Shown: positions 2,145 through 53,300 of the stretch, piece after piece
Numbering within the stretch: position 1 is the first letter of the stretch
Layout of the letters: each line of letters starts with the position of its first letter
The notes under the pieces: generated by a model
Told to the model about the DNA's origin: nothing
Databases searched by the model: none
Seen by the model: the letters and a program-made list of their open reading frames with translations, nothing else
Made by a program: the position numbers and the translations under genes
Source of the DNA: Antedon mediterranea
Taxonomy: Eukaryota > Echinodermata > Crinoidea > Comatulida > Antedonidae
DNA length: 64,000 nt
Assembly (NCBI RefSeq): GCF_964355755.1
Contig: NC_092676.1
Coordinates: forward strand, 1,036,288 to 1,100,287
Reading direction: 5' to 3'

Positions 2145-3624
2145 TTAGATGACACCATAAAGGTGTGCGATTCGTTCCATGAATTCCATGACGGCGTGAC
2201 GTACAGTTTCGTTCTTTACCTGACATACTAACTGATTAACACACGGGAAGACTATTGGCAAGATACTCTGGAACTGGAGATCTGGTAAAAGCTGAAGCAG
2301 TTGCATTAAAGACAGGATCATGTCAGACCAAGACTTCAACAGCGCATCGTGATCCTTCATTATCGACGACTTCTGCTCTAGTTTGATTTTCTCCTGTTTA
2401 CGTCGATCATCCGATGACATGTGTTCATTCTTTGGTTTTGTCGGCTGCTGAGTGTATTTCCATTCTTTGTACGTTGCTTTTTTTACGAATACGGATCGCG
2501 AATGATGAGTCTTTCTCTTTTTGTATTCCTGCATCAAACTCTTGATTGTCTTGGTCGTGGCTAACGTGTAGATCTTACTGTCTTTTGGTGATGAAGGTTC
2601 ATCATACATCTCTCCTTGTTCTGGAGTCGACTCGTCTAGCTCGTTGTGTTTAATCTTTGGGGTCCACTGCGATGCAAACAATCTCTTTGGTTCGCCATCA
2701 TGGTAATGAAAATAAGGATCTCGTCCGGCTGTCGACTGTTCTGGAGATTTAGGTGCAACGAAGAAGAAGAGAGGCACTTCTTCCTCCTTCTTGTTTGAGG
2801 TATCTGAATCTTTTTCTGTGTGGAATTGTAAGTATGAAGCAATAATATCGTTACAAATGCCATATAACCTTTTAACAACCCACTCATAATTTGTGTTGTC
2901 TTCATTAGGATAGAAGCTCAGGTCACAGTTCAGATGTAAGCTTTCAATACTACTCTTTACACTTGGGCACAGCTGGATGGAAGATGATTGTTCACTAGAG
3001 GTAGAAGTTGTACTTCTTGTACGAAGTCTTGGTGATGATTTTACTTCAGCATTTGTATCTTTGACATCATCTGGTTGATTGTCAGCGGCATCACTAGAAG
3101 GAACCACATCTTCATCTCCATACAGAGGAAGGTCTGGTTTGGAACGATGAGAAAGTTTGTTCACAATGCCTTTCACAAGTTCCACATTCAGGTTGTCTTT
3201 TTTGGCATGGTGACAGAGTTCAAGAAGTGTGTGACTGTAGAATGTGAAGCTCATACACGCTTGGTAATACATATTGACGGCAACATCCAGTTTGGCAACT
3301 TTCTGTAGAAGGAATTTCATCCCAGGACGGATGTTAAACTCACAAGCCGTTTGGTATGAGTCGACAAAGCATTCCAACAACAGAGCTAAGTTCTTAGGAG
3401 AAAGGTACGGTAGAAGTCCTGGTAAAGAACTCTCACCAGTGCTGACGTTGCTAGATCCATTAACAGAGTCGTGTAAACTCAATGTAGATGACATACTGCC
3501 TTTGGCAATAGCTTGTACCTCATTTTCTGTCTGGCTCTGTGCTCCATATAACAAGATTGTACCCAGTGTTTGGATCAGCAACTGGTGTGCCAGAAGGCCA
3601 AGGACAATATTTCGATAGTGAACT
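2145..3624 (-). CDS. ARFGEF3: ARFGEF3 exon 27 (last coding exon, stop TAA)
   Basis: Residues 1747-2239 plus stop at 2145-2147. Starts VHYRNIVLGLLAHQLL, continues through LLPYLSPKNLALLLECFVDS, RPGMKFLLQKV, WVVKRLYGICNDI, then KIYTLATTKTIKSLMQEYKK and a final LLPDLQFQSILPIVFPCVNQ to HLYGVI. The end matches the BIG3 C terminus (vertebrate RVYDIIV). One large exon, low-complexity Ser/Thr and Glu/Lys loops between blocks. Confidence 0.95.
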
Positions 3625-6600
3625 CTAAAAAAAAAACCAAAATCATCTCAATGTAAAATAAAAAACAGGACATGTAGGATAAAGCGGACACTAAAAGTGT
3701 AAATGAGGGGGAACAACCTTTGGCTTGCAGCCTAGTAACTGAGTTGAGTTGTGCACAGGTGTGGACATACTTTAGGGGTTATTTATCAATGTATATTATT
3801 TTTTCTTCTATGGTAAAAATGATCTGGGTTTAAACGAGAAATTTGAATATTACACCATACACATAAAGTGTAGATTGGCAATAAAATATATTTTATATGG
3901 AGATTGTCAAATGGAACGAGAAATGAGTCATATGACCTTTTGTTCTAATAAATGTTTTGAAGGTCAAATTCACGGTTTATGATTTAGGTTTATTTTGGTA
4001 GCTCAAAATGACATATTTGATAATGTACAATTTGGATACATATACTGTAATAAAAGCAATGCTTGTTTGAATTAAATATTAGGAAATAATCCTGAATTGA
4101 CATATTTGCAAATCTAAAGTTTATTTTGAGAACATTTATTTCATTTTCAATCAAATATAAAGTTTTACTTTAAAAATACAAATATAATGAGTGAGAAAAA
4201 GCATGACTTTCTGGCTTTTTTTCACTTTATCGTTTTGATTGAGATTTTTACTTTTTAATTGTTTCTTCACTGAGATCCAGCCACAGTATTGCCATTGTTT
4301 TTCAATATTTTGCCTTTGGATTTGTATAGTATAATAATGATTTAAATATAGAACACAATCGCAAGTGAATTTATTCCAAAAATCAATTAAAGATAACATT
4401 ATTCATGTAAAAAACAGATGAATTCTTACCTTGTATGAATAAGGTCCAGTTTCATTGTCGTGTCAACCTCCGGAGGATACAAGATAAAGATGAACGACCG
4501 GCTTGATTCCTCGTTTACGTCAAAGTTTGGACTTCGTTGACATTCAAGGAGAAATACCTGGAATACATCATTAAATATAAACATTAAATTAATTGCAATA
4601 GATACTAAGTATACTATTTTCATTTGAGCACATTAAGTACGTACTTACAAGTAATTAATAAAGATTACCATTACAAAGTGATTTTTTTATTCAGGGTTTT
4701 TGATATTAAACTTGTAAAATTGTAACTACTACCCTCTGGACATATACACACTAGGATAATAAAATTCCACAAAACCATCTCATTTTATAATATTTCATGG
4801 TTTGTTAAAAACTTTTAACTTTGGCAGAGAGAACTTGTACAAAACTACCTTAAGATTCTTAACAGCTGTCAATCCTTTCAAAGAACATATATTCCTGTTT
4901 AATCATAATGACAACTTTCCAAGTTTTAAAATGTGACTGACCGATGAATTCCAATTTCTCAAATTCAGATTACTAAATACTAAATGTCATTTTTCTATCA
5001 ATAAATCTATCTACATAAAGTTTTCGTTTGATAGCGGACAGAAGCTGTTGATTTAGCATACATGTTATTTTAGTCATCAACAAAATGTTCTAATCTAAGT
5101 AAATTTAAACATACAAATGAATTAGAAAAAGTTGTAAATTCAGAATTTGAAAATTTTAACATGATTCAAAGTCTTTTCTGTAATCATGGGCTTTTAACGG
5201 GACAGGTAGGGATAAACAGAATTAGCATCTTCATGTTACAACTCCTAACCTACATTTCTCATTCATTCCCAAAAGCAATAGGTCAACGGAGGTCAATAAA
5301 CCAATATAATCTTAACATCAAGTATTATTAAAATTATAAAATGATTACTAATTAAATAAAAAACCATATTTTATTATATAAAACACAAATATTAATTATT
5401 AAAATTAGAAAATTATTATATAATTATAAGATAACAAATCATATTTTATATAATAAATCAAAATTATTGAGAACCAGAAGCTGGAACTCAAATTAAAAAC
5501 AATAAGAGAAAATAGATAGTTCTTTGATGCACAATAAAAATATATAAACATCATAGTTATTTTTATTACATTTTATTTTTAAAATAAAAAACCAACAGCA
5601 CATCCACCACTTACAGCATGAAACAGAAAACAAATTACAACTCAGAAACATTTAAACTACAACAGAACAGATTAAGACTGGAATTAAAAATGTCAATATG
5701 GGGATGGGCCTGGACTAAACTATTATAAGATAAATTTAATCTACTAATGTAACCATATTTAAGTACATTGACTCTACTAACGAGAACACAGAGGAGATTG
5801 CATAGAATTACCTGTTGTGCTAAGTGTTGCAGCCTAAAATAGTCCATTGGTTTAATATCACGCCTGGCTGCTACTTTAACTTGTCCAACATCACCCATGA
5901 AATCATCCGAGCCTGGATGGAAGCACGCCATCAAGCGCTTCAAACTATGTAGACTTGTCTCTACCGCTTGCTGCATTCCCTTACAGGCAAACGTCCACAT
6001 TTCGTGGGTCAAAATAGGACCGGCACTTAACAACATGTGCCTGCAATTGAAACAATAAAATAACTCAATAATAGCACATGCAGATGTTAAATAGTGATTT
6101 GTAGATTTTAAAAAGAACAATGTTTTAAGTTCAATTAATTTGTTTTAAATAATACAGTTTGAATACTTTGGTTGGCATGGTGTAAGCTCTGTCCACACTA
6201 TAAATCACTATATTCATGGAGGGAAAAATAAAAAAAATTTCCTCCATGCTATATTTAAGTGACAAAAAAACATGATGATATCATATCACTACCATATTTG
6301 GGCACATCATTTATGTCAAACTAGTTTGATAGTGAAGACAGAAATTTAGAAAAGTAAAACATGTGCTTAGAAATCATACATGCTGTGGTTAAAAAATGTC
6401 CATTTAACAAACCTTGGGTTTAAAACAACCACTACAAATCTATTTTTATTAAACAGTAAACTTGAGGTTCATTAATAATAATATAAAACACGTGTTCCAG
6501 CGATTTTGAAATTCACTATTTATGCACTTTCAAAACTTTCCCACTATGTTAATCACTATAATAGTCAATGTGTTTAATTCTCCAGATAATAAACATATTT

Positions 6601-12600: not shown

Positions 12601-15600
12601 ATTTAACTGTTTATTCTATCTTTTTATAAGGGAAATAATTATTCTTCTTTCGTTTTTTTTTTCTATGGAAGTACAGTAAATAACTTCATTAAAACTGCAA
12701 AAAGTCTGATTTTATAAAACTTTATTTTTCATGATTTTGGGGGACAATACCTCTTTTAAGAAAAAAAGTCACTAATAAAACAAATTTCTAATTGTGAAAG
12801 TACATTACAATATGATTGCATTCATGATTTCTTAATTTAGCTTTTTTTTTAAAACAGGCTTTCATGAAATTGAGACAACTACTAACTCAACTAAAAAATA
12901 AATGGTATAAAAAAGTTTTTGACCTTTGACATACCTGGGCCTTTGACAAACTTCAAAAGACATAAAATACAGTCAATAGCAGCATTTGAGAACACAGCAA
13001 CATTCTCTGTATTCAAGAAAGCCTCAAAAACATCAAACACAGGAGCTGTTGGGTGTTCTGTCCTTTCGCTTGAGTCACCATAACCGGTATCGTCCATATT
13101 TTCAAATTTCTGTCGATGAACACGAACGGCACGCAATGTTCCAAATAGAGGGCGCCATCCTGATTTGATATTCGTGTATGATTCTTCTACTATTTCACAA
13201 ATTGATGTTACAACCTGTAGAAAATAGATACTGATTATGTAATGTAATTTGTAAATGTAACTTTGTGGTATTTTTTTTGGGGTTTTTTTGAGAATTTTTC
13301 TTTGATGTAAACAAGAAGCATGCACATGATTGCATTATTATGTAAAGGGCTTTTGAACATGATTCTTCCACGAAAAGGGCACTACATAAATATACATATG
13401 TCCTAGGTCGAGACAAAAGCTCCTAAATCATACCTGGTCCTGAACGTCTTCATCGCAAAGTTCAAGACGCAAAAGGCTCTCAAACGGTTTGAACAACGAC
13501 TCGTTGAAGTTAAAATGATGCAATTCAGATTTGTCAGTCAATAGTTCTGTAAGGACGTCATGGATAGATGCGATAGCTTTCTTGGAAACATGACGATCCT
13601 TATGACAAGCCACCTGAAACACAATAAACATCAAATCAATAATATTGATAAAGTAAACAAATATTTCGAATTCATGACACATTCACGGAAATGTAATGTT
13701 TCCCGCAATGCAGATAAAATATGATGATTTTGCTATAGGCACTAATAATGGCGTAAATGATAAAAATGTTGATATTTGGACAATGATTTAGGATTAAGTT
13801 CTGTCTACATTATCAAATTTTATGTGTCAAGAAAATTTGATTTGCCCAAATATGGACACGATGATATCATATCATTATCATATTTGGGCACATCGCACTT
13901 TGTTTTGTCAAACTAGTTAATTTTGATAGTGTAGACAGAGTTTTTAAGTATGAAGACATTAAAAGTAATGATAATAATAATAATAATAATACGAATTTAT
14001 AACGCGCCAATTCCAGCAGTAAATAATCGAAGGCGCGGTGTATGAGAGAGCTCAATCTGAAAGAAAAAGATGAGTTTTCAAGGCAGATTTAAAGGCGATA
14101 GTAGACGAACATGATCTAATAGAGGCGGGTAGGTCATTCCATAAGCGAGAGGCAGCAGAAGTGAATGTGCTTAAGCCATATGTTTAGTGTTAAAAGTCGG
14201 AATGGAAAGGAGATTTTTTTAAGACGAGCGAAGGTGCCGGGAAGGTATGTGAAGAGGAGAAGGTCAGAGAGATATGAAGGGGATTTGAACGTGATATTAA
14301 TTACAAAATGTTATCATTTTGTAAGGTCTTGTTATCGTGTTATACTGTATTTAAACATTATTATTACAAAAACAAAAGGTAATTTAATGATAATCTCACC
14401 TCTACAAAATGTGGTGCTACTATATTCCAAGCCTGCATGATATGAAGCAAAGGCCGACTCCTACTCCTGCTGCAGCGTAGCATAACATCAGCCATCTTGA
14501 ATAGATGTAGCGACGTACTAGAATAACACGTAGTCTGTAGTGACTTGCTCGGTGACGTTGGACTTATGATTGAAAACTCGTCATCTTTGGCTACGCTGCT
14601 GAACAACTGCAGCTGTGACGTAGCACGTAGTTCTCGCAAAAATCCAAGTAAAGCTTTTAGGTTCAAGTTTCCAGCTGCTTCTTCAAAAAGTCTACAAACA
14701 GAAATTAGTTTTTTGATCAGAAAAAGACTACAAATTTTATAGAGAGATCAAGTGGTGTACATTTATTAGCGTTTTTAAGTGTTTAAACTTTATGTTGCAT
14801 CCAACAGCAACTAGTCAAAAAGATGAGAATTTTAAGTGTGTGGTAAAACTCAAAACCTGCATTCACTAGAAAATGGAAGGCAACGAACAAAACAAGTCAC
14901 ATTATAGAGTTCGTAATTCACCCAATCTACTTTGCTTTAAATTAAACTTAAAAACACACTTTTTTCACAAAGTTTTTTGACCTTGCTTTACTCTTACACT
15001 GCACCTTTGATAAATTTCTGAAGTAGCGCTATATAAATTTATGTTATTATTATTAACAATAAAGGACAGAATGACAAATCTTGTAAACAATGTTTATGAG
15101 GCCATGCGTTATGTATGTGTATGACTATAGTTAAACATAATAAATGAAAAAGAGGATTATAATGATGATGATAATGATGATTATAATGATGATAATGAAG
15201 ATGATAATAATGATGATTATGATAGTGATGATAGATGATAATAATGATGATGATATAACACTGATGATGATGATGATAATGATAATGATGATTATAATGA
15301 TGATGATTATGATGAAGATAATAATGATTATGATGATAATAATGATGATGATGATGAAGATGATGATAATGATGATTATAATGATAATGATTATGATGAA
15401 GATAATAATGATTATGATAATGATAATAATGATGATGATAATGATGATTATAATGATGATGATTCTGATGAAGATAATAATGATTATGATAATGATAATA
15501 ATGATGATGATAATGATGATGATAATGATGAGTCTCACCTGTCCACATCTGAGGACAGTGCATACACAGCTTTAGCAGCGTTAGCGACACTCAGTATTCC

Positions 15601-18600
15601 ACCTCTTGCAGAGTTCATCTCAAAACCAGACTCCTGACTGTTCTGTTGGATGATGTCTTGAACGTTGACAGTAGCTGCCATCGGAGCAGGAACCGACATC
15701 TGGGAGTACGGTGTCATCAGATCATCGTCGTCGTAGGTGTCGTGATGATCTTGGTGGTCTGGCATCTTGGGTAAACTCAATGAGGGTTGGTGACCACTAT
15801 TACGGCTGAAGTGAGAATGCTCTAACTGTGCTACGTAAGCACAACATCTGATAACAAAACACAATTAAATGTTACGGCTGATATAATTTTTATTTTATTA
15901 TGAAATACTAAATTTTTACTGCTCTTTTTAAAGAAACTTGATTCCTTTATAAATATTTCAAATAAAACAATGACTTTACTAATTTAGAAAACTTGAATGG
16001 TATAATGATTATCAATTAAATAATGCCTTTCATTGTATCCTTGTTGTTTGACACAACTGACTTATTTAGATACATACAAAATGACAAATGAAATGCCTTA
16101 TTCTGTACATATCTAAACACATGTACATATCTAAACACATGTACATATCTAAACACATGTACATACCTAAACACATGTACATATCTAAACACATGTACAT
16201 ACCTAAACACATGTACATACCAAAACACATGTACATACCTAAACACATGTTTCCAACAGGGGGCAGCATGGCTTCCCATCTCCAATCCCATTGACAGCAG
16301 AGCATCCATGTTCATAACATGAGCTGCATGCAACCTAACGCCACCTTTGCTTGCGCTCTTACGTGACCCCTTCTTGCCTTGCTCTCCCATTGGTTGAGAG
16401 ACTTCCTCGCTGACGCATGAGGCATTGGCAAGATGGGCGAATACTGCGGCACATCGATCTTGGAGTCCTAGAAAAACAAAAAAATTGAGAATTATTTATT
16501 TATTTATTCTTTATATTGGGTAGCCTCTTCAGTCTAAGACTGTTCTCCCAGAGGGCCCAGTGTATATATATGATGAGGTGTGACAGTGGCTGTGTGTATA
16601 CTAGTACACCAGGGTAACCCCCTACTCGTCTCAAAGGTTGTACTAGCAATTAAGTTTTCAATCTGTATGAATTATAGTTACTGGATACATTTAAAAATGG
16701 CTGTCTTTCCTTCTGAAAACATTAATTTATTTATTTATTTGCATACACTGTGTTAGTAATAATAGAAATAAGCAGTTAAAGACGCTAGTAGTAACTTGGA
16801 CATTTTAATGCACTACAGGCTGTTTCATGACGAGTACATCAATACTCAGGTGCTTGGCTCTGAATGTTAATAATAGTATAACAAGCTGATATATTTAAAA
16901 TAATATTAATAATATTTATTCGGTCACCAATGAAAAAAATATCCAGGAGTGAGAATAGGCTAAAGTCCAAACAGATTCTGCACTCACTCCATAGAAATAA
17001 ACCTGTGAATGTGTTTGTTATCAAAATAACTAGGATAGGTGAAATATATTACCTAAAAGACAACTGAGTCCAGCTGCTTTGCGAAGAGCATCCAAACTCA
17101 TACAGATTGAATCGCGATCACGCGAGTTCTGTTCTTTAGCGCCATCTGTACCCAGTAGAAACGCTATGCTGCCGATCCCTTTAATTCCACGCATTGAGAG
17201 AGGAGCGGCAAGAACGGTCAAGATCTGGTTCCACATTGTCACAAGAACGCCACGGGTAAACTTCATACCTAAAAGAAAGATGAGTGATTTGTGCATATTC
17301 ATTCATTCATCATTTTCGGAATACCATTACATAATATATCCATAGCAAAAGAAAAAAAAAATCTTAATCTAAGAACTCATAGTACAAAAACAAACAAATT
17401 TAAATATATAAAGTCAATGCAACAAGGCATTCCATTGTTATGTGCATTCTTGACACATTAAGAACATGGTGATTAATGGCCATGATCAAAGAAATACTAC
17501 TTGTGTTCACACGATTTTTAAAACTAAAAACACATTTTCTAATGAATTCATCAAAGGATGAAATTTATCATACTATGATGTTTTTTTTTATTAACCATAA
17601 CATTTATTTTAATACCAGACCAAAATCGTGGTATTATTTATAAATTACTACTGTACCATCACAGACCCCCCACATTATCAACCTACAAACAAATACTAAA
17701 TCACACCCAGTCCACTTAATCTGACTCACCTGCTTCCGAGGCTTGATCGGTGCCATTCGACACAATCTGTAACACAACTTTACTTGGTGATGTTGCATCA
17801 TGCATCATTTGACCACCAATTTCACGGCTCACTAATCCATCTATTTCTGTAAGATGAAAACATGAATGTTGATTGAGAAATTATTATCTAGAGCATGAGG
17901 TAACAAATTTTCATTAATCACTAAAAAGACCTTTTCAACCTCCAGAAAAATTGATTTCTTTTCATTTTATTTGATATCAAAATCACAGCCTTAATATGAT
18001 AATACTAATACAAGTATTAAAACATTTTAAATCAGGAATACAGTACAATAGAGAAATTGAAGAAAGAAACAGAATTTTGTACCAGCTAGGCCATGCAACT
18101 TGCTTATACTCGCATGCAACTTGTTTCCACCCTTCAAGCTATCAAATAATATGTCTACCTAAACTGTAAGGCAAGAGAACCTTGCTTAAGTAAGGCAAGA
18201 GAAGATTGTAAGTTTAAACTTACCTGTAAGCAGTGTGATAAGAGCCTTATTACATTGGACTGATTCTGGCTTGTATCCTGCTAGGCCTAGCACATTCTTC
18301 TGCAGCAGTTGGTTGTACAGTTCTCCTAGCCACGTTGATGACAGGTAGATCAATATTCCACTGTCATGAACTTTGTTTACAAATTGTTGCTAAAAAATAT
18401 AACAATTGATGGATGTCAGTTTTAATGTGATGTTCAAATGCTCGAGAGCAGACGTGCTGGAAGTGAGCTCAAGCAACACTATTTCTGTAGCTACATGGAA
18501 TCTGTCATCCACTTGGATGCAACACAGGGACATTAGCGCACCAGAAGTAATTTGACCAATCGTGACTCATAACATCATCCAAACTTACATTGCGTCGAAG

Positions 18601-21600: not shown

Positions 21601-24600
21601 AATCACAAGCATATTATTATTATCTGGAGGTTATTCATTCTCAAATATACTGTATTCAGTACTATCTATGTCAGCATTAAGACAACATCTTCTTTTTTAT
21701 TTTGTTTGTCATTTACATATGTTGATGTAGACAGGTGAATGATCGCTGTTGCATGGCACTGCTGTATGACATGATGGGACCCTAAGGAGACGGTTGTCAC
21801 CTCCACTATTGCGCAATTCAGCCCAGTAAATTATTCGATGTTTTCAAGGAAAAAGATCTGCATTCTTATAATCCACGGCATGCACAAGATTTGAATTCAG
21901 AATTTGGAAGACAACCATCTTTTATTGGACACCAGTTGTGTTTAATATAAATAATAAAAAAAATAATAAAAAGTTCTATTAGTAAATAAATACATATAAT
22001 ATCACTTGATTTGCAACTCACCAGACAATCTTAATAAAGTTGCTATTGTTGCCTAGCTCTTGACTGGAGTTGCTTAACATTGATAATATGGCTTCTAATA
22101 ACATAGTTAATACTGGCTGCTTTTGTTGGTTGTTGTTCAATCTAAAAAAAAAATAACATTACAGTTGAGATTAAAGCCTAACATTGTTTTTTACTCTTAG
22201 TTTATTGTACAATTTTTGATGTTTTTTATATAATATTTTTTCCCTGTGTTGGGCTAAATAAATATGAAATAAGTAATAAAGGCCTTTATGGCACAAACTT
22301 GTGGAGTACCAGGCAATATAGTATACTACTTACTTTTGATTGTCAGATATTTTCTCGCAAAGAAATTCAAGTACTTTGTTCATATCCTGACAAAGAGAAG
22401 CTGTTGGACCTAGATCATCATCTGAAAATGATAAAATATTAAAATAAATAAATATACTAAATACAATACGACAAATTGATATGTATCTAAACATGCATTT
22501 TACCTGTCTCACAAGTTGATTTTTAATATTCTGATAACATAAAAAATTATTCTTGATTAGGTTGATAATTTTGCAACAAAAAAATAAAAAACTATACACA
22601 CACTGAATTAACATCACAGAGGTGGAAGTTATAATAAACAACATGCTATTTGTGATAATACTACAAAACATATTACATCACATACATGCAAAAATAAACT
22701 ACATTTGAGCACATTACAACTGTGGCCTTACCCAGGTATAACTTCATGGACCAATTATTGCTAATTCTGGTGGGTAGGTCACCATCTTACCTGGGTAGGT
22801 CACCATCTTACCTAGGTAAGTCACTATCTTACCGGGGTAAGTCAGCATCTTACTTAGGTAAGTCAGCATCTTACCCGAGTAAGTTAGCATCTTACACAGG
22901 TAAATTATTAAGCCTGAACATGCCCTATGTTGACAAACTTTACGCAATATTACTACAATGTTAAATACACATGCTACAAAGACACACACACACAAAATTA
23001 AGTTAACATAAATTTATTTTAAAATGTGTTGTTTGTACTTACATTATTGGAAGCAGAGGTTTGCGTGAAGGGGTGCAATTTGGGTTTTCGAAGGAAACAG
23101 ATTAATAAAGTATGAAAAAGAAAAGAATCCAGTTGATTGGGGAAAACATTGCAACAAATAAAAACATTTGTCTACAACTTATACTACATAAATATATTCA
23201 TATACACACACTAAAACAACATAAATTTATAGACAACCCTTTCTTCATGTTAAATTTTCTCGTGTCAATGTTTGTAAAAATGGTATTTTCTGTAGACTCT
23301 CGTCATTGTACAATTCTTGTATTTTAACAAATAATTCTTTAGATATTTTTAACTGTAATTTTTCTCAATTTAAATGTATTATTAATGAAATTATTTAAAT
23401 TTTCTTTTTCATTTGTATATATTTATAGGCTCATATTTTATAGTTTAGCTTTTATTTTCAACCTGTTATTGGTGTTTTACACTGTTGGTTTGATATAAAG
23501 AATAAAAAAAAAAAAACAATAAAATGCCAAATGTACGTAAGCATACCTTTGAGGATTTATATACTGTAGATATTTTTCATTAAAACCATTAAATAATTTC
23601 ATAATACGAATATTGTGTATATAATATATTGTGAAAATTTATTTATTCATTGTATATTTATTGTTTTAATTTATTTATTACAAATCTGAACTTTAGTCAT
23701 TTATATAGCAATTATTATTACGTTTGTGATAAATATTTTGGAATGTGCAGTGTCAAATTGCAACCAAAAAAACCTCAATAAAGCCACAAAAAAAGTTGTT
23801 AAAAGTCAAAGAGGTAATATGTATTGTAAACATTGTATATAGAATTGAAATAATCTTTACCTTTACTACTGAACTCAGCCATCACATCAGCTATATCTTC
23901 CTTCTGTAAAGACAAGTTATAAATGTGTGTAAAAAATTGTATAATGTGTACAGTATGTGTGTTTCACCCTTCCCCCGGAAATACCGTTCACAAGACAAAC
24001 ATTATACACAAGATGCTCTACATAACAAACTAAGTCTTTTGGAGTGGAGTTGTAAATTGTCATCGTTATAAAAAATCCTGGGTTCAAGTATGACAGGAAT
24101 TGAACTCAAGACCCTTGGATTGGTAGTCAAGCGTCATAGCCACCAAACCACAACTTCACTCCGCTATATAATTATAGCAATTGATATAAATAAGCAATAC
24201 AATCATATATTTATTAAAAATTAAAAATATATTGTGTATTTTTTTTAAAGAAACAAAAATGGTTATGTTGTTAAATGTAGTTATCTGATTTTAATTAATA
24301 CAATTATATTATAGTTCTTTGGTTATAGTACAGATTAAGATATATTTGTGTGTATGCATGTGTATGTATATGAGTATTATTTATTATTGCTATGTAAAGA
24401 CAAAAAAAAATTAATATGTTAGTAAATGTATATCTCTGGCTAATTTGATTAATACAATTATATTTAGTTAGATTAGTTACATAATTGTGGAAAACACAGC
24501 ATTTACCAAATTAATTAATTATTTACTTAAAAAAAAAAAATGGAATTAATAATTTATAGTTTTTAATATTGTTTGATCACTGTAAGATACTTTATTTAAA

Positions 24601-30600: not shown

Positions 30601-33117
30601 CACATCAAAGACTAATTGTTTATGGTTATTAAAAAATATACACTCAGTAGAAAGAAAGAACACATGATTTTTATAGAATTTTAAACACTGTTCTGATAAA
30701 CAATTTTCTAATGAGTGCTAATATAATAGAGCTAACATATCTTACTTAAATTATTTCAAAATGGCAGATATAGGTAATAATGTTACAGCATACTTGATAC
30801 AAACTGATAGTAACAAGTTGAAGTACACTACAGCAAATACTGATTACAATGTAAATACTGTACTAAATACATCAGTTCTACAAATGTTTACAGGTCTACC
30901 TTAGTTACTGATAATGGGATGACCTATGAGGTCAAAGGTTGATTTCAAAATATGATAACACTGTTATAAATTACTTTATTCATTGTCGTCATTATTGTCT
31001 TTATAAGAAGCAAGTAAATAATACGAAATACAATTTATTTTTAGACCTCCTCGTCCATTAAAAAAACACCAATTAATCAAGAACACTTATTATTTCCTCA
31101 ATTGTTTTCTACGATTTCAGGCGTAAAAGGAAGCTAATTTATCAATTTAAATGTCAGTTGAGAGTAAGGCTAGTTCTAATCTGTGACATCATCAATACTG
31201 TCTAGCAACCAACCTTCAAATAGCCTAACATGCAGTTGTACAAACGTGTCACCTAAACACCAGTATGTTAATTACAGAAGAGAGTTAATAAACACATCAA
31301 GTAACATTTTAAATATATTTTGATTGAAATAATCTGGATCTAGAAAACGCAGATATATCTGAGATCTGAATTTTATAGATCTGAGTTTTCTAGACACCCA
31401 AATAATTTTATTCATTATAAAATTCTTTTCATTTTTTTTATTCAGACAGAAATAATTCATTCACTACTGAAGTTGGTTGAACTGTGTCTTTTATACAAAA
31501 CAATTTCTGTACTATTCATGTAGTTTAATTATTGTCATTATAACGACTTACCTCAATTAAAGCATTGACGTACGCACTGTGTAAGGGACAGGCTTCAGAT
31601 GAACTTAACGTCACTAGGAACTAAAAAAACAAATAACTAAATGATTATTCTTTTGAAAATGTCACAAATATTGGAACATTAAAAACATAAAACAAGGTGC
31701 AAATACTGTAATATTAATAAGGTATTCTAATGTTTCTTTAAAACAATAATAATATTAGTAAAGTTCTCTTTACCAGAGTCTCACATCGCAACATGAAAAG
31801 AATAACCTATTTTATGTCAATAAGCCCTAGGTGTCCTCTTACATCTTGCTTACTACTTGAAAATGTAACTTTTACAAATAAATCCTCTTGTATTTCAAGA
31901 TACAATGAAGTATAGTAAACATCTAGACCATGAATATAATAGTGTGTTTTCCTCAGACAATGAGTTGTTGTTATCATTATAGGAAAAGGTTTGGCAGGAA
32001 ACACATGGTAAACCATCAGAGTAGTAGAGTGCAGTAGACAAACAAAGAAAAAATAAGAAATTACAAGGAATTTAAAGCTCTGTCTACACTAACAAACTAG
32101 TTTAACAAAAAAGTGTGATGTGCCTAAATGTGGTAGTAATATACCCAAATATGGTAGTGATATGACATCATCCATATTTGGGCACATCACATTTTTTGTC
32201 ACAGAAAGTTTGATAGTGTAGAATAAATAAGGCTCATAGAACCTGATAATACTGAATTAATACTGTACCTTCATGATATCAACTTGTGTATCCTCTGTGA
32301 GTGATGGAGAACCTGATAAAGCCCACAGAACTTGCATAAACACAGTCTGCTCCAACTCTTCATTTGTTTCATCTGATTTGAAAGTCTCTTCATCTAAAAC
32401 TTTCTGTTTTACGAAATGAAATAGTTTTATTTACAAAAACAATAAATAAAAAACTAAACAACAAAAATTACGGGTCACATCACTCTCGTACGGTATACCG
32501 ACAAGCATTCAGTGACCGAATGGCAGCTGGATAGAAGCTGTTATGAAACTACTTGTACGAGAGATGATGGATTGGTAATGTCTACAAACTGCTACGTAAC
32601 ACATCAAATACATTATGCATGGGATGAGTAGAATCTTCCAATTTTACCTGAATTCCCTCCAAAGCCAAGGCTGCTAGTTTAGAGTTTTTCGACTCCAACG
32701 CTAACTTCAAAGGAATTAAACATATCATTCGCAGTTTGTGTTTTTCACTTGTACCTCTCTGCGCCTCCAGCGTATCTGAAATCAGAATAAAGTGTCAATT
32801 TCATTTTTTTATTTTATTTTCATTTATTGTATGTTTTATGAAAATAAAAAAATAACAGAAAAAGTTCTTTGTGTGGATATTCAAATAAGCCAATAAACAA
32901 GTTAACAAGTTTGTGAATTATGTACAAAATTAAATAATACATTAATTATTACAATTTTTTACTTGCATGTAGGCCTAATACTAAACATTTTATGTTTTTT
33001 TAAATTAAATTTAAGTATTATTTATAAATAAAACTTACCACAAGCATTGTTACAGGCACTTCTTACAGGTTTATTCTTGGACGCTGATGCGATTATATGT
33101 GTAAATATATCTTCCAT
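2145..33117 (-). CDS. ARFGEF3: ARFGEF3 (BIG3)-like large Sec7-family protein, complete gene, 27 coding exons
   Basis: Spliced gene running right to left. I joined 27 exons by GT-AG boundaries with matching codon phase; the total is 6720 nt, giving 2239 residues (vertebrate BIG3 is about 2180). Similarity to BIG3, as I remember that family, is clear along the whole length: an N-terminal MEDIF start, the ESKNSKLA block, AAELVRLVG (exon 10), ALLLNLKL (exon 13), KEQNSRDRDSICMSLD (exon 16), GLEMGSH (exon 17), FNESLFKPFE plus ELCDEDVQDQ (exon 20), APVFDVFEAFLNT (exon 21), SRLGCSCIR (exon 24) and KSLMQEYKKRK (exon 27). In vertebrates BIG3 is a relative of the BIG/ARFGEF Arf exchange factors with a degenerate Sec7 region, linked to secretory-granule biogenesis and to PHB2, PKA and PP1 binding. 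No exchange activity is inferred here. The start ATG at 33117 is preceded in frame by TGA two codons upstream, which fixes it. Exon 12 adds a long acidic linker. Two small exons (27 and 75 nt) are phase-symmetric and could be skipped. Confidence 0.93.
4430..4557 (-). CDS. ARFGEF3: ARFGEF3 exon 26
   Basis: Residues 1705-1747: VFLLECQRSPNFDVNEE and FILYPPEVDTTMKLDL. It aligns with the vertebrate VFMLDTQCSPK and ELPPDEK segment. Phase 0 to 2. Confidence 0.88.
5812..6040 (-). CDS. ARFGEF3: ARFGEF3 exon 25
   Basis: Residues 1628-1704: HMLLSAGPILTHEMWTFACK, then MACFHPGSDDF and QVKVAAR, ending LQHLAQQ. Matches vertebrate TAGPVFTEEMWRLAC and the following CFHSGTESF. Phase 2 to 0. Confidence 0.93.
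6183..6345. mobile_element. MITE family 1, copy 1 (diverged)
   Basis: Begins AAGCTCTGTCCACACTAT and ends TTTGATAGTGAAGACAG. Contains the family core CACTACCATATTTGGGCACA. Lies in the intron between exons 25 and 24 of ARFGEF3. An internal part is replaced by a local inverted repeat around a TCCTCCATG motif. Confidence 0.7.
6664..6952 (-). CDS. ARFGEF3: ARFGEF3 exon 24
   Basis: Residues 1532-1628: FAVYSISHLLLPMLQSWVRR, SFWDTSIANFKHACGLTTDL, then SRLGCSCIR. Strong match to the vertebrate protein. Phase 1 to 2. Confidence 0.94.
8330..8650. mobile_element. MITE family 2, interior copy without clear ends
   Basis: Shares the interior of the elements at 12452 and 29594: ATATGCCATTTTAATGT, AAAAATTGGATTGAAAAA, then TCTATGGAAGT and the CTGCAAAATAACCTA region. 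The ATTGTCCCCC ends are not recognisable here. Confidence 0.55.
8793..9190 (+). mobile_element. tRNA-derived SINE (family A), interrupted
   Basis: A tRNA-like head with box A (TAGCTTGGTGGTTC) and box B (GAGGTTCAATCCT), followed by a body including CAACTCCACTCCCTAAG. About 180 bp (roughly 8823-9002) interrupts the head. Related pieces are at 11935-12075 (+) and 23990-24175 (-). Confidence 0.6.
10158..10604 (-). CDS. ARFGEF3: ARFGEF3 exon 23
   Basis: Residues 1383-1532: VDLCLPALDYLHRCHKILSS, a Ser/Pro-rich loop, then DIDDESGIICVWFLLLEGLT and CPRHYQPQTLQLLFEVL. Matches vertebrate TDLCLPALDYLRRC and CPRQHQPPTLDLLFELL. Ends in phase 1. Confidence 0.94.
11011..11177. mobile_element. MITE family 1, copy 2
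   Basis: Bounded by AAGCTTTGTCTACACTATC and GATAATGTAGACAGAGTTT as inverted ends, with the interior CACATCACACTTTTTTGTCA. In the intron between exons 23 and 22 of ARFGEF3. Confidence 0.85.
11935..12090 (+). mobile_element. SINE family A, body fragment
   Basis: Shares TTACAACTCCACTCC, AAGACTT and GTAGAGCATCTTGTGTATA with the minus-strand copy at 23990-24175. The tRNA-like head is largely lost. Confidence 0.5.
12272..12346 (-). CDS. ARFGEF3: ARFGEF3 exon 22 (75-nt symmetric exon)
   Basis: Residues 1358-1383, phase 1/1, encoding NIMYFVVKPEPLLDTDDEFV and a short tail. It joins exons 21 and 23 in frame but both also join without it, so it may be a cassette exon. The surrounding sequence (GDCAP-like stretch in vertebrates) is not conserved. 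Confidence 0.72.
12452..12757. mobile_element. MITE family 2, full copy
   Basis: About 305 bp with inverted ends AAAGATATATTGTCCCCC and GGGGGACAATACCTCTTTT. The internal sequence is shared with copies at 8330, 29594 and 51652. In ARFGEF3 intron 21, about 100 bp from exon 22. Confidence 0.8.
12935..13214 (-). CDS. ARFGEF3: ARFGEF3 exon 21
   Basis: Residues 1265-1358: IKSGWRPLFGTLRAV, then APVFDVFEAFLNTENVAVFS and CLLKFVKGPG. These are the classic BIG-family SGWRPLF and FDVFEAFL signatures. Ends in phase 1. Confidence 0.95.
13434..13613 (-). CDS. ARFGEF3: ARFGEF3 exon 20
   Basis: Residues 1205-1264, phase 0 at both ends. VACHKDRHVSKKAIASIHDV, LTELLTD, HFNFNESLFKPFE and ELCDEDVQDQ are near-identical to vertebrate BIG3. 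The most conserved exon of the gene. Confidence 0.95.
13795..13946. mobile_element. MITE family 1, copy 3
   Basis: Inverted ends TTCTGTCTACATTATCAAA and TTTGATAGTGTAGACAGAG; interior GCCCAAATATGGACACGATG. It abuts the LINE tail that follows. Confidence 0.85.
13955..14290 (-). mobile_element. LINE 3' tail fragment
   Basis: The minus strand reads SRLWNDLPASIRSCSSTIAF, then KSALKTHLFLSD and a stop, followed by GGCGCGTTATAAATT and an (ATT)n run. This is the characteristic C-terminal tail of many non-LTR retrotransposon polymerases (W..LP..IR......FK..LKTHLF). 5'-truncated; some frames broken. Confidence 0.7.
14400..14691 (-). CDS. ARFGEF3: ARFGEF3 exon 19
   Basis: Residues 1107-1204. Contains LFEEAAGNLNLKALLGFLRE, then RATSQLQLF, SLHLFKMADVMLRC and RPLLHIMQAWNIVAPHFVE, matching the vertebrate helical repeat (HDS) region. 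Confidence 0.93.
14880..15058 (+). mobile_element. LINE 3' tail fragment, plus strand
   Basis: Plus-strand sequence reads SLLCFKLNLKTHFF-like and ends GTAGCGCTATATAAATTTAT plus (TTA)n, typical of a LINE 3' end with a simple-repeat tail. Only about 180 bp remain. Confidence 0.5.
15131..15534. repeat. GAT/AAT-rich compound microsatellite
   Basis: About 400 bp of interrupted GATGATAATGATTATAATGAT-type repeat (a 3-bp period with A/G changes). It fills the intron after ARFGEF3 exon 18 and begins eight bases inside the intron. Open frames through it encode only poly-Ile, poly-His/Tyr or poly-Met and are not genes. Confidence 0.95.
15539..15847 (-). CDS. ARFGEF3: ARFGEF3 exon 18
   Basis: Residues 1004-1107. 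Starts CCAYVAQLEHSHFS (vertebrate VCEYVGTLEHNHFS) and ends ALSSDVDR. The donor GTGAGA is followed eight bases later by a long GAT/AAT repeat within the intron. Confidence 0.92.
16105..16248. repeat. 18-bp minisatellite spanning an exon end and its splice donor
   Basis: Eight contiguous 18-bp units, plus-strand form GTACATACCTAAACACAT or GTACATATCTAAACACAT. Units 4, 6 and 8 carry ACCT and unit 7 carries ACCA, giving GT donors on the gene strand; units 1, 2, 3 and 5 carry ATCT and lack GT. Unit 8 overlaps the end of ARFGEF3 exon 17. Confidence 0.95.
16239..16467 (-). CDS. ARFGEF3: ARFGEF3 exon 17, with tandem alternative donors
   Basis: Residues 928-1004, ending GLEMGSHAAPCWKHVFR, which matches vertebrate GLEMGSHNPDCWPHVFR. 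The donor used here (exon end 16239) is the first of four GT-bearing units of an 18-bp minisatellite that repeats the exon end and splice site. Alternative use would add 6-residue YVHVFR-type units in frame. The chosen boundary gives exact family alignment to exon 18. Confidence 0.9.
16496..16645 (-). mobile_element. SINE family B, 3' body fragment
   Basis: Shares CTCCCAGAGGGCCCAGT and GGGTAACCCCCTACT with the larger copy at 41197-41512. The tRNA-like head is missing. Confidence 0.6.
17053..17268 (-). CDS. ARFGEF3: ARFGEF3 exon 16
   Basis: Residues 856-928. Contains FLLGTDGAKEQNSRDRDSIC then MSLDALRKAAGLSC, one of the best conserved blocks of BIG-family proteins directly after the Sec7 region. 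Phase 1 to 1. Confidence 0.93.
17313..17465. repeat. Interspersed repeat family C, copy 1
   Basis: GGAATACCATTACATAAT, ATCCATAGCAAAA, then AAGTCAATGCAACAAGGCAT and TGCATTCTTGACACA. The same order is seen at 20266-20430, and its start at 41511-41620. Class unknown; at 41511 it directly abuts a SINE head. Confidence 0.65.
17730..17846 (-). CDS. ARFGEF3: ARFGEF3 exon 15
   Basis: Residues 817-856, IDGLVSREIGGQMMHDATSP and onward. Matches the vertebrate IDGLESSAIGGQLM segment. Phase 1 to 1. Confidence 0.88.
18224..18389 (-). CDS. ARFGEF3: ARFGEF3 exon 14
   Basis: Residues 762-817 (QQFVNKVHDSGILIYLSSTW, then LYNQLLQKNVLG). It lies in the Sec7-like region. Phase 0 to 1; the Thr-Glu join to exon 15 reproduces the vertebrate MLTDIDGL motif as LLTEIDGL. 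Confidence 0.9.
18785..18981 (-). CDS. ARFGEF3: ARFGEF3 exon 13
   Basis: Residues 696-761. Contains VINADGIYVATYYALLLNLKL, shortened here to its key part ALLLNLKL, which is nearly identical to vertebrate BIG3 at the start of the Sec7-like region. Phase 1 to 0. Confidence 0.9.
19329..20167 (-). CDS. ARFGEF3: ARFGEF3 exon 12 (acidic linker exon)
   Basis: Residues 416-696. It opens with the conserved VVCVLGFLTSLEEITQGKHL, followed by roughly 150 residues dominated by Glu and Asp (poorly conserved linker), then a charged helix around LDERQLKRRQEMEKLAEKN and the conserved ALIQLLPS and FASKFVG. The vertebrate protein also has a long unstructured insert here, but without this degree of acidity as far as I recall. 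Confidence 0.9.
20266..20430. repeat. Interspersed repeat family C, copy 2
   Basis: Same motif order as the copy at 17313, with GGAATACCATGATTACATAA and AAGTCAATGCAAGGAGGTAT. In ARFGEF3 intron 11. Confidence 0.65.
20551..20675 (-). CDS. ARFGEF3: ARFGEF3 exon 11
   Basis: Residues 375-416 (MLSNPQRVLDMAGPP through DLDLLKL). Human BIG3 has the equivalent SPQRLCDLAGP and LDLLKL. Phase 0 to 2; the Leu codon is split across the junction to exon 12. Confidence 0.9.
21265..21568 (-). CDS. ARFGEF3: ARFGEF3 exon 10
   Basis: Residues 273-374. Strong family blocks: LCPTLIAILG, then a Ser/Thr-rich loop ending in VPDQGRGSS, then YSIAAELVRLVGTVESLRPV and LLYPPP. This matches the HUS-like helical region of BIG3 very closely. 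Confidence 0.93.
22022..22141 (-). CDS. ARFGEF3: ARFGEF3 exon 9
   Basis: Residues 233-273, including LLEAILSMLSNSSQELG and ending at a split Trp codon, as in vertebrate RFTDLIW. The acceptor follows a run of T. Phase 2 to 2. Confidence 0.87.
22334..22421 (-). CDS. ARFGEF3: ARFGEF3 exon 8
   Basis: Residues 204-233, including DDLGPTASLCQDMNKVLEFL, corresponding to the vertebrate segment around VESLCDDVVSVLTVLCEK. Phase 1 to 2, GTAAGT donor. Confidence 0.82.
22764..22905. repeat. 21-bp minisatellite, about 7 units
   Basis: Diverged units of the form GGGTAGGTCACCATCTTACCT to AGGTAAGTCAGCATCTTACTT, shown here only by type: each pairs GTAAGT or GTAGGT with CTTAC. Donor-like hexamers therefore occur on both strands. 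In the intron between ARFGEF3 exons 7 and 8. Confidence 0.85.
23861..23903 (-). CDS. ARFGEF3: ARFGEF3 exon 7 (43 nt)
   Basis: Encodes KEDIADVMAEFSSK and ends in phase 1. Its length is not a multiple of three, and it is needed to bridge phase 0 (exon 5 or 6) to the phase-1 start of exon 8. That makes it likely to be real and constitutive. Confidence 0.72.
23990..24175 (-). mobile_element. tRNA-derived SINE (family A)
   Basis: Read on the minus strand: GGAGTGAAGTTGTGGTTTGG, GTGGCTATGACGCTTGACTA, then box-B-like GAGTTCAATTCC and the body ACAACTCCACTCCAAAAG ending in GTAGAGCATCTTGTGTATA. A tRNA-related head plus an unrelated tail, so it is a SINE and not a tRNA gene. Confidence 0.65.
24829..26208. 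repeat. 41-bp satellite array, 33 units
   Basis: Near-perfect head-to-tail repeats starting ACAAGTAGATTTTATCAAGT and ending CTAGCTAGGT or CTAGCCAGGT. The span 24829-26200 equals 33 x 41 plus 19 inserted bases: two units carry an extra CTGTA plus TTA (near 25076 and 25372) and one an extra TTA (near 25596). It sits in ARFGEF3 intron 6. There are no spacers, so it is not a CRISPR array. Confidence 0.97.
26343..26502. mobile_element. MITE family 1, copy 4
   Basis: AAGCTCTGTCTACACTGTCA at the left and TCGATAGTGTAGACAGAGCT at the right form the inverted ends. Lies close to the satellite array and 135 bp from the candidate micro-exon. Confidence 0.88.
26637..26663 (-). CDS. ARFGEF3: ARFGEF3 candidate micro-exon 6 (27 nt)
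   Basis: A 27-nt phase 0/0 segment encoding HQEKAVTTK between a strong acceptor (CTTGTTTTTAG) and a GTATCA donor. Exons 5 and 7 are also phase-compatible without it, so it is either an optional micro-exon or a chance match. It is supported only by splice-site quality and an open frame. Confidence 0.5.
27369..28185. repeat. Tandem duplication of about 405 bp
   Basis: The segment starting TTTAGACTAAACTGTCGTG at about 27369 recurs diverged at about 27771 (TTTAGACTAAACTATTGTG), including GGAAATTCTATTCCATGTTA, AATATCTTCCTATTCATAAA, and GTAGATATTGAAAGGTTTAG near the end of each copy. No coding potential is evident. In ARFGEF3 intron 5. Confidence 0.85.
28200..28588. repeat. 49-bp minisatellite, 8 units
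   Basis: Units contain TTGTAAGTTATAGGTCCTCT, GTACTTAGGATG, then TTGGTATGTTAAATG. Eight occurrences of GTCCTCTGTACTTAGGATG are spaced by about 49 bp. It directly follows the 405-bp tandem duplication. Confidence 0.95.
28871..29025. mobile_element. MITE family 1, copy 5
   Basis: Ends AAAGCATTGTCTACACTATC and GATAATGTAGACAGAGCTTT; internally a duplicated AAATATGGTAGTGATATG motif. Confidence 0.88.
29384..29552. mobile_element. MITE family 1, copy 6
   Basis: Ends TAAGCTCTGTCTACACTATC and GATAGTATAGACAGAGCTTT. Interior includes CATGCCCATATATGGGCACC. Confidence 0.9.
29594..29937. mobile_element. MITE family 2, full copy
   Basis: About 340 bp with ends AAAGATGTATTGTCCCCCAA and CAGGGGGACAATACATCTTA as an inverted pair. 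It has the same interior as the 12452 copy but in the opposite orientation. In ARFGEF3 intron 5. Confidence 0.85.
30234..30362 (-). CDS. ARFGEF3: ARFGEF3 exon 5
   Basis: Residues 138-180, phase 0 at both ends. It contains RTAVKVTLTQTLSHVCQFLQ, the segment that in human BIG3 holds the PHB2-contact helix. Two of the three reported contact residues are changed here (see findings). Confidence 0.88.
31552..31620 (-). CDS. ARFGEF3: ARFGEF3 exon 4
   Basis: Residues 115-137 (FLVTLSSSEACPLHSAYVN and onward), 69 nt, phase 0 at both ends. Acceptor TTTTAG, donor GTAAGT. Confidence 0.85.
32074..32222. mobile_element. MITE family 1, copy 7 (right end truncated)
   Basis: Left end AAAGCTCTGTCTACACTAAC intact; the right inverted end stops at GATAGTGTAGA and then passes into unrelated AATAAGG. 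In ARFGEF3 intron 3. Confidence 0.85.
32269..32403 (-). CDS. ARFGEF3: ARFGEF3 exon 3
   Basis: Residues 70-114, phase 0 at both ends. It continues the DCB-like region with the motif SPSLTEDTQVDIMK, which aligns with TPSLNEDLQVEVMK of the vertebrate protein. Confidence 0.9.
32648..32775 (-). CDS. ARFGEF3: ARFGEF3 exon 2
   Basis: Residues 27-69. It carries the block LIPLKLALESKNSKLAALAL, which matches the N-terminal dimerisation/helical (DCB-like) region of BIG3. Acceptor TTTCAG, donor GTAAAA, phase 1 to 0. Confidence 0.9.
33039..33117 (-). CDS. ARFGEF3: ARFGEF3 exon 1 (start codon)
   Basis: Encodes residues 1-27, beginning MEDIFTHIIASASKNKP. An in-frame TGA lies two codons before the ATG (33121-33123). 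The exon ends in phase 1 at a GTAAGT donor. The BIG-family N terminus also starts MEEI and has a similar basic and Ser-rich segment. Confidence 0.88.
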
Positions 33118-50300: not shown

Positions 50301-53300
50301 TACAGATTTTCTTGTTATTCTCACCTTAATATTTGAAAACCAAAGCCTGTTCTCATGTAAGGTGTGCAGAAAATTTGCAAAATGATACCCAATATAAATG
50401 CTGATTATAACACCAATCAAAAAATAAACAAAATTCATCCACTGTGATTTTCCTAATTGCCTGATCTCCGATTGCTGGAATATTCCATTATTTACAACGG
50501 GAGTTTTTCCATTCCTGCCGTTTACTCTTGATGAATGTTCTTCTTTGTGTTGTATTCTCTTCCGTGATTTTGACATGGTTTCAGTTTATATACATTCTTT
50601 AAAACACAATTTGATACTAACATATTTACAGAATACTAACATATTTACAGAATACTAACATATTTACAGAATACTAACATATTTACAGAATACTAACATA
50701 TTTACAGAATACTAACATATTTACAGAATTCTAAAAGGAAAGGAATGATTTCTTTTGTAAATAAACCTGGACATCGCTCCAAGCTAATAAACTTTTAATG
50801 AATACAGAAACGTTATGGTACAATAGCTATAGATCTTCACAAAAGGTTGTTACTTAGTCGTTACTATTCATTCACTATATTCTAACTTTATGATGACCAT
50901 AAAAGTCTTTATAAATATTGTATATCACTAAACTAGGCACTGAAGTGAAATTATAGTTGAGTGAAAATTATATTTACTGTACCTATACAGTCAAAATGAG
51001 GGGACAGGATATAAGGGCTGTATTCAAACGTTTGCCTATCTAACAAAAATTGATGGGAAATACAGTATTTTGCAAAGTGAAAAGTCTCAGTGATATATAG
51101 ATAAATCAATCAATTCTTTTCAATAATTGATAAATTATTTAAGGCATAAATATTGTTGTTAATGTTGCAATTTTATTTAACCGACAGTATTTGGTGTTTT
51201 TTCACCTTTTAAAAGTATAGCATAAATAAATATACTTTTTTTTTTTGTTCAGAGATGAGACCAACTTTTTTGTCTTGTGTGGGTTCGTCCCACTTTGTCG
51301 GAAAGTAAATAAATTTAAAAAACATGTTAATAATTAAGATCTTAATACAATCTTATAACATTAATATTTCAGTATGGATATCATAAACTATAATGAATAA
51401 ACAATGGCAATCTGTTGAAAGTGAATCCCATTATTTTTGTAATTTATTGTAACAATATCCAGATACTAGAGAGCTAGTAGCACATGGTACTACAGTATGC
51501 CAGCTGAGGTTGATATAATTGGCCAATTACCACTAATTGAAAATCAATCCAACTATCAAGTCATCATATTACAAGATGACATCAATTGTCTGTGAGGACA
51601 GGTATTACCAACATTCTGTCAACCAATCAATGAGAATGTATTAGACTTAAAGTTGTATTGTCCCCCAAAAACATGAAAAATGAAGATTAATAAAATCAAA
51701 TATTAAACAAAAATAATTTTAATTTCAGGGGGACAATAAACCTTTAAAGCTCATTTCATTTATTTAATAAGAAAAAATAGATCTCCTCCATGATTCCTAC
51801 AGGAAAAAGAACTTTTCTACCTCTTCTACACAAGCAATAATACTCATAACGCTAAATGCATGCAAATTAAGGTATCAATTACTATTAAAGTTTCGAACAG
51901 AAACGTGCAAAAATAAAAATATCAAAGACCAATATTCTAAAACAAAAACTGACATGTCTGAAAAACATTCATAAATTGAACAGTTTATGATTTATGGGTA
52001 AAGAATATTAGAAAGGCAATGAAGCATTATCAAGATTACTTTCTAAGCTGTTGCTAAGTTTCACTGAGAATTTAAAAGCATATGTTATTGAGGTTATGGT
52101 TTTAGGGGCATGTCTTATTATTGCAGAATGGCTACTGTACAGTTAAGGTCAACTCAGACAGCAAAGATGAGTCAAGACGTTTCTTCTGGTCTCGTCATAC
52201 GATGCTGTCTGAGTTGGCCTTTAGTACCAGCAGATTCTTGAGGTGATGACGTCGTTGAATCCTAAAAATGAAGGCACAAATTTTATAACTTATGTCCCAC
52301 CTACAGTAGCCTATATTCTAAATGACGATTTGGCTTAATATTATTCGTAAAAAGATATACATTTTGGCACAAATGGCGTGTTATATCTTGAGCTGGAATC
52401 TCCCAGTTTTAAACAACAATCAAAATGCATGAGTGCATCTACGTAAAACAAAACAATACCTACACAAATCTAGTCCTACCTAAGCTTGCAAGGAAATCTG
52501 TTTTAATCCTTCTCCAATTTATTACTACCTAACAAATTTTGGTAAATTACTTTTAACTACTTAACTGTCACAGAGTTCCGCCAACTGGCAGTTGTAGCCT
52601 GCTGGACCGTACCTACTGTGGTTTTTATCATTATCTACACTACTGATTGATCTTGATGGTCCGCATAAATGATGCACTTTACTGACTTCCTTTCAGGAAA
52701 GATTAAAAAGGTACGTTAAACTTTTAGTAACTCAAGAAATGATGAGAAAAACTCACCAGATAAGTCATAATACTTCAAACTTAAAAGAACTGATACATGA
52801 TTAACATGCACAATATAAAACATCAGTCAGTGTAGTACATGTAGAAAGCCATTAATTGTTTGAAAATAAACTTTGCTAAATTGAACTAATACTAGAAATT
52901 GATGTAAGAAAATCTATAGTATGGAGTAAATTTACCTGATTCTCTGTACTTGTATATAGAAAAACGCATGCGTAACATGGGAAGTCTGTATTATTTGATT
53001 AAACTGAAGCCTTCTTTTAATAGTGTATTTTAACATGGATAAGAAAACATATAGGAGATACTGTTTTAACTTGCTGGTCTAACAAAACGGTTCAACAAAC
53101 TCAGTCACCTCATTTTGACTGCTTCCTTCATTCACACCTATAGTAATTGTCAATTTTTTATAAATTACTGCAGTAACATGATTTGCAGTTGACAATTTAT
53201 TGTACTTTTTACTGCAGTAACATGACCTACAGTTGACAATTAATTGTACTTTTTCAAAAGATAAATTCTTCAAAGAAAGCGTTTAATCCGACAGTTGAAA

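Follow-up and report, generated by a model that had tools for sequence, protein, structure and literature searches.

The window analysed here is a 64,000-nucleotide stretch of the crinoid Antedon mediterranea (NCBI RefSeq assembly GCF_964355755.1, contig NC_092676.1, positions 1,036,288 to 1,100,287), and positions below are those of the window. On its minus strand lies a gene that fits ARFGEF3, in which a minisatellite runs across an exon-intron boundary and repeats the splice donor in series. The features at this boundary, all on the minus strand, are listed below together with the predicted energies of donor pairing to U1.

16239..16467, minus strand: coding exon upstream of the array (exon 17 in a first-pass annotation of this DNA), with acceptor TTTTTCTAG and an open frame
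16107..16250, minus strand: eight-unit array, ACATGTGTTTAGGTATGT units straddling the exon-intron boundary
16233..16241, minus strand: donor 1, TAG/GTATGT, first intron base 16238, taken as ancestral; predicted U1 duplex -8.1 kcal/mol
16215..16223, minus strand: donor 2, TTG/GTATGT, +18 nt, would add YVHVFW; predicted U1 duplex -6.7 kcal/mol
16197..16205, minus strand: donor 3, TAG/GTATGT, +36 nt, read from the sequence; predicted U1 duplex as for donor 1
16161..16169, minus strand: donor 4, TAG/GTATGT, +72 nt, read from the sequence; predicted U1 duplex as for donor 1
16107..16187, minus strand: stretch with the four AT units (16184, 16148, 16130, 16112) and also donor 4; predicted U1 duplex -1.4 kcal/mol for the AT units
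15848..16238, minus strand: intron of 391 bp (GT...AG) for splicing at donor 1, read from the sequence
15539..15847, minus strand: next coding exon (exon 18), starting (R)CCAYVAQLEHSHFSR; its own end, AG/GTGAGA, read from the sequence

The repeat comprises eight 18-bp units that run from 16250 to 16107. Tandem Repeats Finder reported it at 16104-16250 with a period of 18, 8.2 copies, a 96% match and a score of 259, against a top score of 68 among 20 first-order Markov sequences of 64 kb. Unit 1 starts at 16250, 12 bases within the exon, and the exon end is itself the first copy of the array; counted from the GT, the array amounts to 7 full units and a 9-base partial. Outward from the exon the donor dinucleotides read GT, GT, GT, AT, GT, AT, AT, AT, with first intron bases at 16238, 16220, 16202, 16184, 16166, 16148, 16130 and 16112. 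GT is kept in four of the eight units (16238, 16220, 16202 and 16166), AG/GT in three. The units vary in the first base of the donor and in one base of unit 2, and in nothing else, and the AT units are identical to one another. The change from GT to AT turns AGG into AGA, which is synonymous (Arg) if coding, and unit 2 (TTTTGG, counted from the exon) holds the sole residue change, Arg to Trp.

The exon upstream of the array ends in ...CWKHVFR, phase 2, and from there HVFR-(YVHVFR/W)n can be read on uninterrupted across all eight units, up to a stop just past 16019. Donor 1 joins exon 17 to exon 18 free of any insert, giving CWKHVFR-CCAYVAQLE; the predicted products of donors 2, 3 and 4 carry in-frame insertions of 6, 12 and 24 residues. 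This spacing of 18, 36 and 72 nt does not match the GYNNGY class of close tandem donors, which lie 4 nt apart. The first-pass annotation had described eight 18-bp units beginning exactly at the exon end. Its unit count and size stand and its starting point does not, the true start being the 12 bases inside the exon. The minus-strand reading agrees with its calls of four GT and four AT units, and with its account of extra donors spaced by multiples of 18 (+18, +36 and +72 nt on the minus strand) and held in frame by units that contain no stop.

The host gene was placed by domain matches in three open stretches, which flank the array at some distance.

12894..13334, minus strand: same gene, match to Sec7-like_HDS (PF09324), Pfam E 1e-5, above the cut-off
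2148..3647, minus strand: same gene, match to BIG2_C (PF20252), Pfam E 2e-13, above the cut-off
32585..32794, minus strand: weak match to DCB (PF16213) at E 0.018, its 15.3 bits falling short of the curated cut-off (25.6); probably the N-terminal part of the gene

None of the 14 genome-wide matches to Sec7 (PF01369) falls inside the window, and none was found among the scanned minus-strand open stretches of 16.2-32.8 kb (5 of 9 proteins of one set, 10 of 10 of a second and 10 of a third, the sets partly overlapping), but a weak or exon-split Sec7 could escape such scans. A whole-genome search for HDS (PF09324) gave three matches, all of them on contigs C11 and C9, and the match inside the window was not among them; a weak Sec7 could therefore be missed likewise. 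A gene that combines Sec7 with HDS, of BIG1/2 type, sits on C11. ARFGEF3 (BIG3) is not known to have a canonical Sec7 domain, its Sec7 being degenerate. Since the gene in the window has BIG-family domains and no Sec7 detected, and a BIG1/2-type gene is present on C11, its predicted protein appears to be a BIG/ARFGEF relative that fits ARFGEF3, in keeping with the gene name that the first-pass annotation had given it.

The choice of donor 1 as ancestral draws on an alignment with this paralogue. Exons 17 and 18 joined at donor 1 match the BIG1/2-type protein of C11 with a BLASTP E of 0.002 (8/53 identical), and in the alignment CWKHVFR-CCAYVAQLE lies opposite W-LEILKC-ISQLE of the paralogue that bears Sec7, interrupted by a single gap of 3 residues. 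The paralogue segment in turn matches 8ucq_B, a SEC7 domain-containing protein of solved structure, at E 1e-19. Exon 17 alone has no Pfam or PDB match, and an ungapped alignment of exons 17 and 18 with the paralogue, at 6/40 identities, was set aside. The gapped alignment agrees with the earlier statement that the insertions would fall in a conserved region of the protein, in so far as the region can be aligned with the BIG paralogue; we take the stretch that donors 2-4 would interrupt to be helical. The paralogue has an intron of its own nearby, in phase 0, and the ARFGEF3-like intron is in phase 2; because the phases differ, a shared old intron is not claimed.

We searched the genome for three donor-like 8-mers in a row, in the patterns AGGTATGT, AGGTAAGT, AGGTGAGT and AGGTAAGA. 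The first two gave at least 18 arrays, of which 13 were examined, leaving out four loci of a 23-bp satellite of contig C3 and one GTAA-rich array of C4; the last two gave at least 14, of which 9 were examined, those set aside being four loci of a 34-bp family on C3 and one locus of a 36-bp family on C4. Two dispersed donor-like families occupy C3 at ~20.1-23.7 Mb, with several loci among the matches listed, the 23-bp one containing AGGTATGTACACACTATAACAAA and the 34-bp one AGGTGAGTAACATTAGATCATTAGGGACAGGTAT. Overlapping matches to the donor patterns and to their reversed controls numbered 400 vs 113, 177 vs 232, 271 vs 53 and 202 vs 147, counts dominated by a few large arrays among the matches listed. 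Because these controls are mixed, and because genuine donors would account for much of what such 8-mers match in any genome, we claim no enrichment at exon ends. Four of the 22 examined arrays start at exon ends supported by homology (DHX8, TDP2, UTP6 and a CMP-sialic acid transporter). One more adjoins the end of an exon whose matches are weak and TPR-like. These five arrays are as follows.

C1:17775565-17780500: DHX8 array (L009/L017/L021), 37-bp units; exon end ...QIHLTEPP is the first copy
C1:41207268-41212400: TDP2 array (L011/L018/L022), 31-bp units; exon end GGDTNLRDSE is the first copy
C1:454094-457600: UTP6 array (L004/L024), 31-bp units, 9 counted; exon end KIHGNNP is the first copy, PDB E 1e-7
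C1:16038300-16039000: CMP-sialic acid transporter array (L030), 25-bp AGGTAAGA units; PDB E 1e-20, Pfam Nuc_sug_transp
C2:631200-638900: TPR-like gene array (L007/L019/L023), 39-bp boundary units, first spacing 40

Four further arrays, L008, L028, L031 and L032, look like exon ends and have no homology support (L032 had no PDB or Pfam match, L028 and L008 no Pfam match), and the remaining 13 of the 22 adjoin no convincing exon. A Pfam search with seven array-side exon fragments gave no match.

At DHX8, where eight units were counted with AG/GT in all, the exon ahead of the array aligns with residues 186-226 of 6hys_A (E 1e-19) and the one that follows it, GDILMFLTGQEEID, with 227-288, with no residue missing between the exons. 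At TDP2, with 29 units counted and GT in all, the exon before the array matches residues 106-159 of 6ca4_A (E 1e-10) and the exon after it, VKSIGGLPGG, matches 161-249. Since the flanking exons match consecutive segments of the protein in both genes, splicing at the first donor would yield the conserved protein with nothing inserted. The UTP6 array is followed by the open stretch MWIMASKFEMED, presumably the continuation of UTP6. Past the array of the TPR-like gene, which we take to be TRANK1-like, there is an open stretch of 1077 codons, the first part of which matched no Pfam family.

The 18-bp unit of the ARFGEF3 array is a multiple of three. Of the 48 extra GT donors counted in four other arrays, 13 keep the frame of the first donor (DHX8 2/7, TDP2 9/28, TPR gene 0/5, UTP6 2/8) and 35 do not; the DHX8 and TPR-gene counts end at the first break in the unit walk and so describe partial arrays, and the transporter array lies outside the count. 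Keeping the frame is therefore no general trait of the boundary arrays of this genome. GT is kept in all 48 of these extra donors and lost in four of the seven downstream units of the ARFGEF3 array, a contrast biased by the selection of the comparison arrays for intact donors. Base composition is 32% GC in the window and 35% in 45.6 kb of the other loci, lower than the ~41% of lancelet genomes.

Repeats of this kind have precedents. Lancelet ‘mirages’ are minisatellite-like tandem duplications of exon-intron boundaries, many of whose units keep AG/GT (PMC3087553). Haplotypes of the lancelet globin mirage differ in unit number, and reverse transcription PCR suggested that regular splicing of the gene is undisturbed (PMC3087553); the Adh and TnC mirages are said to yield no aberrant mRNAs (PMC3902484, the PGBD5 paper), and the units of the Adh3 mirage span 10-72 bp (PMC3087553, PMC3902484). 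The Antedon array is likewise a head-to-tail minisatellite that spans a boundary and has several units with AG/GT, as in lancelet Adh3, globin, troponin C and PGBD5. It differs in the gene concerned, and in that undisturbed splicing and length variation are reported for lancelets whereas the array here is known from the DNA of one assembly. In humans, a minisatellite provides multiple donors in IFI6 (6-16), according to a title cited in PMC4526556, and segmental duplications contain variable internal tandem repeats at exon-intron boundaries, which may alter transcript structure and are tied to novel introns (PMC2812944). The repeat here stands at the start of an intron that may or may not be novel. 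Earthworm metallothionein minisatellites are intronic and are not described as donor copies (PMC12783039). No mirage outside lancelets was named in the titles and abstract openings of the literature searched, from which most subscription papers were missing. Boundary repeats as such have been described before, in lancelets and in one human gene.

Judged from its DNA, the ARFGEF3 array is quite probably a mirage of this sort, in which the first, ancestral donor would be used for the most part and the copies would largely be passive, though a few in-frame isoforms might arise by leakage. A tandem duplication would have copied the last 12 bases of the exon together with the first 6 of the intron, and slippage or unequal exchange would have extended it to eight units. 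Splicing would occur mostly at 16238/16239. The AT units would be ordinary point changes spread by copying. Because the unit happens to be 18 bp long, any occasional use of donors 2-4 would add 6, 12 or 24 residues and shift no frame. That spacing is probably luck, and the array may be in frame simply as one unit length in three would be. Since several conserved genes of the genome carry boundary arrays that are mostly out of frame, the repeat resembles an accident that the gene tolerates more than a switch built into it, and the ‘tunable, polymorphic switch’ proposed in the first-pass annotation is not established.

Several points weigh against mostly exclusive use of the first donor. Donors 1, 3 and 4 share the same 9-mer and the same predicted pairing with U1, so the sequence alone favours none of them. 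The extra donors of IFI6 are reportedly used (Turri et al. 1995), and its unit is said to be in frame; our array shares with it a multiple-of-three unit and an open frame, at 18 bp against the 12 bp of IFI6. The RNA of the array region has an unusually stable predicted fold (z -5.5), and there donor 1 is more open than the donor positions of the other seven units (unpaired 0.69 vs 0.00-0.40), which speaks for its use; the predicted folds of the DHX8, TDP2, TPR-gene and UTP6 arrays lack this difference in accessibility, so the openness of donor 1 may be incidental. We rejected RNA folding as a general cause of first-donor use, donor 1 standing out in ARFGEF3 and in 0 of 4 other arrays. The authors of the lancelet globin study themselves state that mirage copies could act as cryptic splice sites (PMC3087553).

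A rival reading is a working generator of in-frame isoforms, in which donors 1-4 compete to add 0, 6, 12 or 24 residues in shares set by the repeat number and by the units that keep GT. Four GT donors in frame, no stop and three donors with equal predicted U1 pairing are what it would need, and the IFI6 minisatellite, as titled in a reference of PMC4526556, would be its precedent. We nevertheless think it rather unlikely: frame-keeping is no rule in the genome, given 13 of 48 extra donors in the four other arrays, the insert would hit a stretch alignable with the BIG/Sec7 family, and lancelet mirages are reported to leave splicing undisturbed (PMC3902484). A different role for the AT units, that they were favoured by selection because GT copies mis-splice and act as decoys, could be read from the loss of GT in 4/7 downstream units here against 0/48 in the four other arrays. 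Those arrays, however, were picked up by a search that required three successive intact donors, so the count is biased; the AT units are identical and probably stem from one or two changes; and DHX8 and TDP2 retain many intact, mostly frameshifting donors, all of which makes such selection a very improbable explanation.

An origin outside the gene, with a dispersed satellite landing at the exon end, was suggested by a core, TGTACATGTG, that the array has in common with arrays on C8 and C1. The units of those matches differ, at 19 and 22 bp, and on this ground the origin was rejected. Exact copies of the 18-mer were moreover found in the ARFGEF3 array alone, and the HVFR encoded by the exon part of the array can be aligned with the paralogue; we give this origin next to no credence. 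Local duplication of the boundary, with splicing mostly at donor 1, is the reading that we prefer.

Taken together, the arrays amount to a natural experiment in donor choice, with near-identical donors in series of which mostly only the first would give a working protein. The set as a whole, with the DHX8 and TDP2 series mostly out of frame, is of more interest than the ARFGEF3 locus alone; the latter is the in-frame case, where leakage would appear as insertions of 18, 36 or 72 nt without a frameshift. A bolder generalisation, to which we attach little probability, is that boundary minisatellites recur here, perhaps outside lancelets, under a first-donor rule. The spliceosome would then choose the donor nearest the exon from a series of near-identical copies that can run to tens and are mostly frameshifting, even in essential genes like DHX8, and rare multiple-of-three arrays such as that of ARFGEF3 would escape the rule and serve as length-variable isoform generators.

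Other repeats lie in the window. Within the same gene, a 21-bp array at 22771-22895 combines CTTACC in one unit with GGTAAG, the latter on the minus strand; it seems intronic, with no adjoining exon seen. A 19-bp array at 50614-50734 carries TACTAAC and TTTACAG on the plus strand, resembling a branch point and an acceptor, and lies directly upstream of the start of a minus-strand gene that we take to be DPY19-like. At 57408-63998, a 2197-codon open frame, for which Pfam names only DUF5983_N, Pentapeptide and DUF2498, consists of leucine-rich-like repeats of ~118 residues with a period of 354 bp.
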